Source: a virus. Taken from it: a stretch of DNA of 32,681 nucleotides. Both the position numbers and the translations under genes were made by a program. Shown in pieces: positions 2,764 through 29,813 of the stretch (positions are counted from its first letter, which is position 1; every line of letters begins with the position of its first letter). Location of the stretch: positions 1-32,681 of the IMG/VR virus record IMGVR_UViG_3300037541_000387; one strand, written 5' to 3'. Below the pieces are notes generated by a model that had not been told where the DNA came from, ran no database searches, and was given only the letters and a program-made list of their open reading frames with translations.

Positions 2764-3804
2764 TTATATTATAGGTGATATTGTTAACTTTATGCTTTCC
2801 TCTCCTGCATTTGAAACTCTAACATCTATGCCATATATTCTCATAGTGGTATTTATATCTACATAACCATATTTTATTCTAATTGGCACTATATCCCCTA
2901 CATCGTACTTACCAAAATCATTATAGGCATTATTAAGAGTTATATCATAAATTGGTTGTTCTGTCTTGTGGACTCTAATATATTCATCTGCCTTCTGGTC
3001 TAATGTAGCTTGCTCTGTTACCGATTTGTCTTGCTTTCTACCTTCTAATAATCCTACTGCATTAATTAAAACATTGTCAGTTTGTGTAGATGTAAGCCTT
3101 GCATCTCCTAACCCTTGTCCTTCTACCACTATGCTGTTAAACATATCTGATAAAGTCCTTTTTCTGCTCCAAGATTGTATATTATTTTTTAACCCCTCAC
3201 CATATTCTAATCTAAAATCTGTGATTGTAGATCCTCTCTTAGCATATACATTAAATACACCTAAAGTATTTATTTTTATACTAGGAGTTATAAGAAAGTC
3301 AAACCCATTGATTACCTCTGTTAATTGGATAATCTTTTCACCTATACTCTCATCAAAATACTGTCTATCTCTATTCTGAGTAGTCTCTATTGTCCCCTGT
3401 GTCAGCCCTAAATTACCACCTGTAAGCCCTTGTGTAGTGTTAATCAACCCCCAAGCTATAGTCCCTGCATCTGTAGCGGTATACGTGTTAGAAGTATACC
3501 GTTTTTCACTTAATATATGGAATATCTCTGTGCATTGTATAGTCACATCCCCATCATCACTAGCACCCTCTTGTATTTCCCATACTACCCCCGCCCATAT
3601 TAAAACATTTTCTCTATATATAAGCAGTCTTGTCACCCCAAGGTATATATCAAATCGTTGTAACCTTTCAACTGTGATAGGTACAGTAAAACTAGCCTTA
3701 CCTGCTCGGTTAAGCTGATAAGAATATTGTCTATTCATCACCTCTGGGAAGATTTCTTTCTGCCCAGTTCTATAATCCCATAAGATATATTTATATTCCG
3801 ACAT
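2764..3804 (-). CDS. Tail-associated (Tal-like) minor tail protein
   Basis: A 346-residue protein starting MSEYKYILWDYRTGQKEIFP and followed by beta-rich sequence. The pattern RLLIYRENVLIWAGVVWEIQ near residues 55-75 and IRIKYGYVDINTTMRIYGIDV near the C terminus fits the siphovirus ReqiPepy6 Gp37-like/tail-associated family. These proteins form the baseplate hub under Dit. The order tape measure, Dit, this protein, fibres is the standard siphovirus order. It overlaps the Dit gene by 14 bases. There is no attached lytic domain, unlike many Tal proteins. Confidence 0.65.
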   Translation of the reverse strand: MSEYKYILWDYRTGQKEIFPEVMNRQYSYQLNRAGKASFTVPITVERLQRFDIYLGVTRLLIYRENVLIWAGVVWEIQEGASDDGDVTIQCTEIFHILSEKRYTSNTYTATDAGTIAWGLINTTQGLTGGNLGLTQGTIETTQNRDRQYFDESIGEKIIQLTEVINGFDFLITPSIKINTLGVFNVYAKRGSTITDFRLEYGEGLKNNIQSWSRKRTLSDMFNSIVVEGQGLGDARLTSTQTDNVLINAVGLLEGRKQDKSVTEQATLDQKADEYIRVHKTEQPIYDITLNNAYNDFGKYDVGDIVPIRIKYGYVDINTTMRIYGIDVRVSNAGEESIKLTISPII

Positions 3805-25331: not shown

Positions 25332-25340
25332 TGATATAAT
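25332..25340 (+). promoter_or_regulatory. Extended -10 promoter before the structured RNA
   Basis: TG-A-TATAAT at 25332-25340, a perfect extended -10. No good -35. RNA start near 25347, about 17 bases upstream of the closing stem of the RNA at 25364. Confidence 0.55.
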
Positions 25341-25363
25341 AAGTACAGCACATTAAAATATAG

Positions 25364-25496
25364 AGTTCTCAATGGAGGGGTGGCGGAATATAAACGCAAG
25401 AGTTCGGTTTAATATTACCGATTGATAAACAACCTCTGATAGCAGGTGAAACTATCTTGCAATGGTGAAAGTCCATTGCCCCTTCCACTGAGAACT
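25364..25496 (+). ncRNA. Compact multi-branched RNA, tRNA-like or riboswitch-like
   Basis: All pairings nest. The outer stem is AGTTCTCA (25364-25371)/TGAGAACT (25489-25496). Next is a 7-bp acceptor-like stem GGAGGGG (25374-25380)/CCCTTCC (25480-25486). Inside it are GCG/CGC (25383-25397), then AGAG/CTCT (25399-25402, 25434-25437) around TCGGT/ACCGA (25404-25421). Then come GATAG/CTATC (25438-25456) and GCAATGG/CCATTGC (25459-25479) with loop TGAAAGT. The 5' part GGGGTGGCGGAAT matches tRNA-Leu starts. The loop GGTGAAAGTCC is also found in cobalamin riboswitches. The anticodon part is about 22 bases too long for a tRNA. Class undetermined. Confidence 0.65.
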
Positions 25497-25621
25497 TTAT
25501 ATCTCAAACACTGATTATGTCTGTTGACTCGAAAGAGTATTATCATTAACTTAAACATATTAAACGATTAAAAGATTGTAAACTACCTAAAAAAACTATC
25601 ACTAGATACAAATGGAATTTA

Positions 25622-26119
25622 TTGATAGCACTGTACTGTTTACTATTTCTATTCTGGATATTAAAATATTCTGAAGCAATAGCTGAACCTTATACACCAA
25701 TTAAACAGGACTTTACCAAATTAGAGAAATTAGAGACTATATCTATACCAAAGCCTATACAATCTATCCCTAAACCTAAAACTCTTGCAAGAGAGGCAAA
25801 AAATGACCAAATAGCATATAATAGAAGCTGTTATGACTATGTAGATGAGATGGCTACCAAATATAATGTAGATGGAGACCTTATGAGGAGGATTATAAAA
25901 GCTGAGAGTGGAGGTAATCCAAATGCAAAGAATAAGAACTCTACTGCCTCAGGTTGTAGCCAGTTTATAAAATCTACTTGGGAAGGTACACTAAGACAAA
26001 TGGGTAGAGAATATATATCCCCTTTTGACCCTAAGACAAATGTAGAAGCTATGGCTTTTAAGATATCTAGAGGAGGTATAAATGCTTGGAATGCTAGTAA
26101 AAGTAAATGGAGTAAATAG
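25622..26119 (+). CDS. Secreted lytic transglycosylase (SLT/lysozyme-like)
   Basis: A 165-residue protein. A signal or anchor helix (residues 1-21, IALYCLLFLFWILKYSEA) and a Pro/Lys linker (about 35-60) precede an SLT domain from residue 70. The catalytic Glu is at about 95 in RRIIKAESGGNPNAKN, followed by ASGCSQFIKSTW and NAWNASKSKW. It cleaves the glycan strands of murein. It starts at TTG 25622, since no ATG or GTG lies in frame upstream before the stop at 25547-25549. The structured RNA at 25364-25496 is in its leader, which may control it. Confidence 0.8.
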   Translation: MIALYCLLFLFWILKYSEAIAEPYTPIKQDFTKLEKLETISIPKPIQSIPKPKTLAREAKNDQIAYNRSCYDYVDEMATKYNVDGDLMRRIIKAESGGNPNAKNKNSTASGCSQFIKSTWEGTLRQMGREYISPFDPKTNVEAMAFKISRGGINAWNASKSKWSK

Positions 26120-26962: not shown

Positions 26963-26979
26963 ATACAAACATTTTGTAT
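26963..26979 (+). repeat. Perfect hairpin over the HNH start codon
   Basis: ATACAAA, loop CAT, TTTGTAT. The last two bases are the AT of the HNH start codon. In RNA it could hide the start; in DNA it could be an operator. Confidence 0.5.
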
Positions 26980-27265
26980 GGCTTCCGTCAAATCTTCGGT
27001 AAGACATGCAATAAAAGAAGATTACGATTACACTTGCCAATTCTGTTTTGAACAACTCCCTCCAAATAAACTCCAAATTCATCATATTATAAGGCGGAGG
27101 GACTCAGGCACAAATCATTACTCCAATTTAATCCCCCTTTGTTCGCACTGTCATTGTCTAGTCCATAAGCACAATTACACTCACAATCCTAAAGGGAATA
27201 GGATAATGTACCTTAGCTATATATACTCACCAGCACCACACTCATTCCAGAGAGTTGTCGTTTGA
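26978..27265 (+). CDS. HNH endonuclease
   Basis: A 95-residue HNH nuclease: C20-x2-C23, H35-H36 (LQIHHIIRR), N50 (SNLIPLCSHC), C55-x2-C58 and H63. The Cys pairs hold structural zinc; the HH-N-H set is the metal-dependent active site. In phages, small HNH proteins often help terminase cut DNA. Here it lies away from the packaging genes, alone, with its own divergent promoter and terminator, more like a mobile or defence-type nuclease. Confidence 0.85.
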   Translation: MASVKSSVRHAIKEDYDYTCQFCFEQLPPNKLQIHHIIRRRDSGTNHYSNLIPLCSHCHCLVHKHNYTHNPKGNRIMYLSYIYSPAPHSFQRVVV

Positions 27266-29739: not shown

Positions 29740-29813
29740 TGGCAAAGACGGTAGGAATTGAACCTACAACAATAGTTTTGGAGACCATCGTTATACCATT
29801 TAACTACATCCTT
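29740..29813 (-). tRNA. tRNA-Trp (anticodon CCA)
   Basis: A complete 74-base cloverleaf on the minus strand with encoded CCA. The acceptor AAGGATG (29813-29807) pairs with CGTCTTT. The D stem is GTTA/TAAC, with GG in the D loop (AATGGTA). The anticodon stem is ATGGT/ACTAT with loop CTCCAAA. The T stem is GTAGG/CCTAC with loop TTCAATT. CCA reads only UGG, so it does not recode UGA. It lies in the leader of the gene at 29717, 22 bases upstream. Confidence 0.9.

Follow-up and report, generated by a model that had tools for sequence, protein, structure and literature searches.

Several non-coding RNAs join parts of a transfer RNA (tRNA) to another domain. Transfer-messenger RNA (tmRNA), which is without a D stem, carries a tRNA-like end domain together with a large inserted domain. 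In Bacillus cereus, the pseudo-tRNA tRNA-Other is a tRNA-like element within a larger regulatory RNA and takes no part in translation (PMC3399842). The YrlA Y RNAs bind Ro60 proteins (PMC8394870, PMC11472068), and an RNA-seq study of a Listeria phage reported non-coding RNAs of very high abundance, so far unexplained, close to tRNA genes (PMC12282133). Here we analyse an RNA element on the plus strand of IMG/VR virus record IMGVR_UViG_3300037541_000387 (positions 1 to 32,681, the whole of which is referred to as the window). The element, at 25360-25501, is almost certainly a member of a large family of tRNA-Leu-like RNAs that is missing from Rfam and occurs in phages and plasmids of Gram-positive bacteria. 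RNAs of this family keep the acceptor, D arm and T arm of tRNA-Leu as well as the contact between D loop and T loop, while a variable domain replaces the anticodon arm.

The family was collected by scanning the T-arm sequence CAAGGTGNAAATCCTTG across 2.9 million viral contigs. At least 120 matches were obtained, most of which show the arrangement acceptor, TGGCGGAATAGGTAGACGC, insert, GCAAGGTGCAAATCCTTGC, acceptor; those within coding sequence were set aside, and a match to the 5' pattern in the genome collection (L031) was attributed to chance. Since the scanner had required pairing acceptors in the aligned rows, the acceptor was tested again on 71 distinct T-arm matches with a D arm, for which acceptor pairing was no selection criterion. 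At least six of the seven acceptor pairs form in 70 of these 71, as compared to 12.7% when partners are swapped. Once aligned, 42 distinct scaffolds show pairing in 99.2% of pair cells, the cells with double changes number 162 (36 +/- 6 in shuffles), and a slide by one column cuts pairing below 40%. The acceptor pairs of the family are 98.6% paired, with double changes at all seven. For the T stem, which the search pattern had predetermined in most rows, covariation comes from a few others (L073, phi3T) and from the first pair; covariation of the D stem and elbow is free of both search biases, namely the T-arm pattern and the acceptor requirement. The first-pass annotation of the window, made from its sequence alone, had named missing covariation in homologues as a possible refutation of a structured RNA; double changes at 15 of the 17 pairs leave that reading unrefuted.

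The conserved part resembles tRNA-Leu down to single positions. The acceptor is exactly 7 bp long, with positions 1-7 paired at 94-100% and those from position 8 onward near or at background. The next base is A in 47 of the 71 matches, as is A73, the base after the acceptor in tRNA-Leu. Both the equivalent of A15 and the T of the linker before the T stem are invariant, and an A15-U48 pair is known in tRNA-Leu. At the elbow, 36 members have a GC pair, three GU and two UA. The T stem has 6 bp and the T loop reads TGNAAAT. Between the D and T arms lies an insert of 9-233 nt; in some phages, phiFL2B among them, the arms are about 3 nt apart. Of 65 non-redundant inserts, 34 are closed by a helix that stops 2 nt 5' of the T stem, where 3.2 are expected. 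A tRNA-like outer architecture is under selection and encloses a hypervariable inner domain, both in leaders and in tRNA arrays. Two proposals for the insert were rejected. A general pseudoknot looked plausible by eye and had been suggested by a test in which the closing helix was free; with that helix held fixed it is unsupported (median p 0.50; 1 of 48 at 0.05), and compensating changes were seen by eye in L005/L027 only. An antisense guide was also discarded, as the matches of inserts to their own phage do not exceed those of shuffled sequences.

The window element was assigned to the family by a covariance model (R2) built solely from members outside the window's phage group. R2 scores 44.1 bits in the window (E = 4.4e-9) and recovers the sister copies at E values from 6e-15 to 4e-18, with L006 marginal (0.0014); within the group, it gave no match to L008, L009, L089, L129 or the first copy in L007. 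The parts of the window element are as follows.

25360-25501, plus strand: full element including the outer stem
25353..25508, plus strand: optional cassette, approximate bounds; missing between ..GTACAGCAC and ACACTGATTATG.. in L002/L003, and at the same site in L010/L011
25360..25371, plus strand: 5' strand of the outer (sheath) stem, ATAGAGTTCTCA; kept in copies of the window's group regardless of interior
25374..25380, plus strand: 5' strand of the acceptor-like stem, GGAGGGG, from the fold
25381..25397, plus strand: TG (positions 8-9) and D arm GCG-GAATATAAA-CGC; D loop without GG
25398..25456, plus strand: variable insert replacing the anticodon arm
25405-25420, plus strand: hairpin within the insert
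25438-25442/25452-25456, plus strand: closing helix of the insert, GATAG/CTATC
25432-25435 with 25444-25447, plus strand: candidate pseudoknot ACCT/AGGT within the insert (possible)
25457..25458, plus strand: 2-nt linker TT (mostly AT in the family), its T equivalent to U48
25459..25479, plus strand: T arm GCAATGG-TGAAAGT-CCATTGC
25480..25486, plus strand: 3' strand of the acceptor-like stem, CCCTTCC, then A
25489..25501, plus strand: 3' strand of the outer stem, TGAGAACTTTATA

The structure of this element is real and beyond chance. Its minimum free energy (MFE) fold reaches -52.5 kcal/mol over 25360-25501, in comparison with -30.3 +/- 3.8 for dinucleotide shuffles (z = -5.8; 0 of 200), and contains all six stems of the first-pass annotation: outer, 7-bp acceptor, 3-bp D, CGGT hairpin, GATAG/CTATC hairpin (four of five pairs) and 7-bp T. 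Because the reverse complement folds comparably well (z = -6.1), the strand was assigned from gene context and from the homologues, in which G-U pairs exceed A-C pairs by 14 to 3 on the given strand, supporting RNA on that strand. The parts follow the family order of 7-bp acceptor, D arm, insert, T arm and acceptor, and the closing helix GATAG/CTATC, followed by TT and GCAATGG, keeps the family spacing of 2 nt.

The likeness to tRNA-Leu and the replacement of the anticodon arm by a larger domain, both noted from the sequence at first, were borne out and hold for the entire family. As initially described, the D loop is without GG and the T-like loop, TGAAAGT, is without C56, so both elbow partners were lost together; a U-A pair is possible, yet the D loop is 2 nt shorter. 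Listeria A511 is similar, with GG missing and A instead of C56. The joint loss in the window therefore appears as part of the family-wide co-variation of the elbow pair among GC, GU and UA. The T stem of 7 bp and the TGAAAGT loop also contrast with the 5 bp and TTCRANN loop expected of a functional tRNA. An Rfam scan, proposed earlier as deciding between tRNA and cobalamin models, found neither of them at the element even at E <= 10 and no family at threshold there. ARAGORN gave no tRNA at the element and only a tRNA-Trp at 29740-29813, and the element has no anticodon arm with a 7-nt anticodon loop.

Comparison with relatives of the SLT lysozyme encoded downstream shows that phages of the window's group carry the element optionally, as a cassette placed between a TATAAT promoter and the leader of the lysozyme gene. 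L002/L003 and L010/L011 lack it, the window, L005, L006, L009 and L012 have it once and L007 twice, and in L004 the end of one copy precedes two full ones. Across the group the outer stem ATAGAGTTCTCA/TGAGAACTTTATA does not vary, whereas the interior switches between architectures. Most copies have the tRNA-Leu-like interior (the window, both in L004, L005, the second in L007, L012 and L027). Another interior, with an arm around CAGTGAGCC, was found in the first copy of L007, L089 and L009, and the interiors of L008 and L129 have common loops with CGGC and GCCG. In the latter two loci (L008 3504-3638; L129 1056-1192, reverse strand), the window-type outer stem encloses a different core of two hairpins, whose loops ACGGCAAC and AATCGCCGATAA could kiss; these loops are conserved and the stems differ. 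On the reverse strand of L027 (about 2990-3420), two unlike cassettes stand in tandem, followed by a lysozyme frame that is broken past its N-terminal part. As the frame directly after the element is no intact lysozyme gene in L008, L027 and L129, the element is not tied to that gene.

Beyond this group, the T arm was found in 168 INPHARED records, nearly all from phages of Listeria, Bacillus, Enterococcus, Leuconostoc and Brochothrix, and in 136 plasmids, 134 of them from Enterococcus; these counts are T-arm matches, and the remaining scaffold was checked in part of the records. Most of these matches fall in unannotated gaps. Members lie inside the tRNA arrays of Enterococcus phiSHEF16 and Listeria A511 and in those of metagenomic phages, with the L272 copy only a few nucleotides from tRNA-Tyr. 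A late transcriptional regulator and terS flank the member of Brochothrix BtpYZU01 and that of Enterococcus phiFL2B, those of Listeria PSA and Enterococcus EG-TP1 adjoin a transcriptional activator, and in SPP1 the element occupies L320 2921-3030, between gene 9 and scaffold gene 11. The phi3T/SPbeta hybrid has a member with the T stem GGGAGG/CCTCCC. A more diverged member is placed between sea1/prgA and asa1/prgB of pheromone plasmids. Translational control of prgB, which is of an unusual kind, has been reported to involve the prgA-prgB leader (PMC8265641), and this hints independently that leaders of this type are important. Given that relatives precede terS, a scaffold gene or an aggregation-substance gene or lie in tRNA arrays, control specific to the lysozyme was rejected, and the wall-lysis role suggested at first is not a specific one.

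At a threshold of 1e-7, the family was detected in only five of 299 bacterial genomes of one phylum, and a single-member query gave no match in E. coli genomes, so it travels with mobile elements and is no housekeeping RNA. Weak R2 matches in bacterial genomes are 80-85 nt long, the size of an ordinary tRNA-Leu.

Other small RNAs were noted in sequences that carry family members. Directly after the main element of SPP1 (L320 3040-3084) there is a possible 45-nt mini-tRNA shape with a 6-bp acceptor, a small D-like hairpin and the T arm CGGG-TTCAATT-CCCG, for which a weak tmRNA T-arm match was the only one obtained. A second tRNA-like type, with acceptor TTGGCGTG, a canonical T loop and no evident anticodon stem, is common to an Enterococcus phage (phiFL2B, L322 2650-2723) and a pheromone plasmid (pTEF1, L319 4188-4261); its phiFL2B copy is a tRNA according to Rfam (42.8 bits). 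An Rfam mcrA RNA lies at L202 4363-4413 (reverse strand), ~90 nt 3' of a family member, and a phage contig with a family member also carries a type II hammerhead ribozyme (L190 14441-14508, reverse strand).

With respect to function, we see an even chance that the element works as a tRNA-like module for processing or stability, on which a variable RNA domain is displayed. The elbow and acceptor would be recognised by RNase P, RNase Z and perhaps the CCA-adding enzyme, or the compact fold may itself act; the element would cut ('punctuate') or protect the phage transcript. A stable small RNA with the variable domain would remain as a natural counterpart of the laboratory 'tRNA scaffold', and this domain is expected to bind an element-specific partner. 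The exact 7-bp acceptor followed by A, together with the neighbouring real tRNAs, suggests that an end is made there in the fashion of RNase P/RNase Z. In the window's group, where the outer stem prolongs the acceptor past a small internal loop, excision may instead proceed by RNase III-type cleavage of the long stem; alternatively, the element might remain in cis, where it would protect the lysozyme mRNA at its 5' end. In a possible but doubtful extension, phages and conjugative plasmids would use the tRNA-Leu chassis as an interchangeable display scaffold; each element would follow the maturation route of a tRNA, with RNase P, RNase Z, CCA and perhaps leucylation, while its fast-evolving, element-specific domain acts on the host or its defences.

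Several points weigh against a processing or stability module. No processing, abundance or binding data were located for any family member in the searchable literature. The elbow of the window copy is weakened, and RNase P might be hindered by the outer stem that extends past the acceptor in this copy. Acceptor and T stem add up to 13 bp (14 in the window), compared to 12 in a normal tRNA, and CCA is not encoded. The strong sequence conservation of the D and T arms is hard to explain by processing alone. Moreover, the cassette is dispensable in the window's group, since four of its loci are without it.

The association with phage tRNA arrays, the conservation of the Leu-type D arm, the A past the acceptor, U48 and the elbow, and the failure of inserts to match their own phage would also suit a trans-acting decoy that mimics tRNA and occupies a defence nuclease, an aminoacyl-tRNA synthetase or another tRNA-binding host factor, its variable insert evading recognition or supplying a second binding site. 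We regard such a decoy as unlikely: no consistent neighbour protein was observed, long inserts with a closing helix are needless for a pure decoy, and anticodon nucleases are improbable targets because there is no anticodon to imitate. The Ro-binding motif (GNCGAAN0-1G) is not enriched, occurring in three of 74 inserts when 2.3 are expected and nowhere near the window element, and no Y RNA was matched across the Rfam scans. These results speak against a phage Y RNA, composed of a tRNA-like effector module and a Ro60/Rsr-binding arm, as does the family order of acceptor, D, insert, T and acceptor, from which the circularly permuted YrlA departs. We give this explanation a slight probability, although YrlA likewise combines D, T and acceptor arms with another domain at the place of the anticodon arm (PMC8394870, PMC11472068), and the authors of the Listeria phage RNA-seq study speculated on Y RNAs near tRNA genes (PMC12282133).

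Decaying pseudo-tRNA-Leu genes without function would account for the plainly tRNA-Leu-like D arm, for the score of 21.6 bits that the SPP1 copy reaches with the tRNA model (under the 29-bit cut-off) and for the optional element in the window's group. However, decay would not preserve 99% pairing through compensatory change, nor would the exact 7-bp acceptor, TGNAAAT loop and 6-bp T stem persist across many phages, so that the covariation of the 42 members refutes this reading in the main and we hold it very improbable. A DNA-level inverted repeat for recombination, replication or packaging is about as poorly placed: it would fit that the cassette of the window's group is present or absent as a unit, can stand in tandem and has near-palindromic ends, and that members in temperate phages often lie near terS, but G-U pairs outnumber A-C pairs 14 to 3, as RNA pairing on the given strand predicts, the conserved part consists of loops, and members also occur distant from terS and on plasmids. 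Least probable is a cobalamin-type metabolite riboswitch controlling the downstream gene, a resemblance raised by the first-pass annotation. The leader position and GGTGAAAGTCC, which resembles the hairpin of these riboswitches, speak for it; yet GGTGNAANTCC turned out to be simply a T-loop hairpin, no cobalamin model matched at E <= 10, the conserved parts are tRNA-like around a hypervariable core, and the downstream genes are unrelated to cobalamin.

The window record is a 32.7-kb virus with terminase, portal, coat, tape-measure and ERF genes. The element is flanked by the following features.

25332..25340, plus strand: extended -10 promoter TGATATAAT, from the sequence
25510..25549, plus strand: conserved downstream leader with a small hairpin ACTC-GAAA-GAGT, by eye
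25622..26119, plus strand: SLT-domain lytic transglycosylase (lysozyme), apparently secreted (PF01464, E=2.5e-11)

The TATAAT core of the promoter, which was assigned to the element at first, is conserved in most relatives, including the element-free L002 and L010; a generic promoter scan does not report this promoter. Relatives lacking the tRNA-like element also keep the leader block ACTGATTATGWCTGTT-hairpin-ATTATNATTAA, and compensatory changes in its hairpin distinguish the relatives (ACTC/GAGT, CTCC/GGAG, CTAG/CTAG). The transglycosylase gene was confirmed, but its supposed TTG start at 25622 is uncertain because coding similarity at the lysozyme N-terminus extends upstream, reaching a TAA stop without ATG, GTG or TTG (TAA-ATT/CTT-AAA-CAT-ATT...), in the window (25550-25622) and in L002, L004-L007, L009 and L010. 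A non-AUG start driven by the tRNA-like leader, similar to an internal ribosome entry site, was ruled out since L002, without the element, has the same start-less frame. A small HNH endonuclease gene lies at 26978-27265, ~0.9 kb 3' of the lysozyme gene.

Taken together, these data describe a large family of structured RNAs that has strong support and no entry in Rfam; a full-text literature search, with subscription papers outside its scope, found no description of it. Members are present in Enterococcus pheromone plasmids, where the family member is a candidate cause of the poorly understood leader control of prgB, and in the classical laboratory phages SPP1, PSA, A511 and the phi3T/SPbeta hybrid, so that their function is open to immediate tests in B. 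subtilis. The anticodon arm is naturally replaced, as it is in engineered tRNA scaffolds.

Among known systems, the cobalamin riboswitch shares only the GGTGNAANTCC hairpin, and all else differs, with no model match. The coordinates of the Listeria phage RNAs do not obviously coincide with a family element and provide a lead only (PMC12282133). The B. cereus tRNA-Other is chromosomal, has a Trp anticodon and is set apart from the family by its description. The plan of tmRNA is similar, but the D stem is kept in the family, and the element gave no match to the tmRNA model. YrlA is likewise a non-coding RNA in which tRNA D, T and acceptor arms carry another domain for the anticodon arm, but it is circularly permuted, with its ends at the anticodon-arm position, and Ro motifs are not enriched in the family inserts. 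From tRNA-Leu (RF00005) the family differs in the lack of an anticodon arm, the insert of 9-233 nt, the absence of an encoded CCA, the 6-bp T stem and the TGNAAAT loop in place of TTCRANN, and the window copy gives no tRNA match; nevertheless, the family has in common with it the 7-bp acceptor, TG at positions 8-9, the 3-bp D stem with a GAATAGGTAGA loop, A15/U48, the elbow contact and the A past the acceptor.
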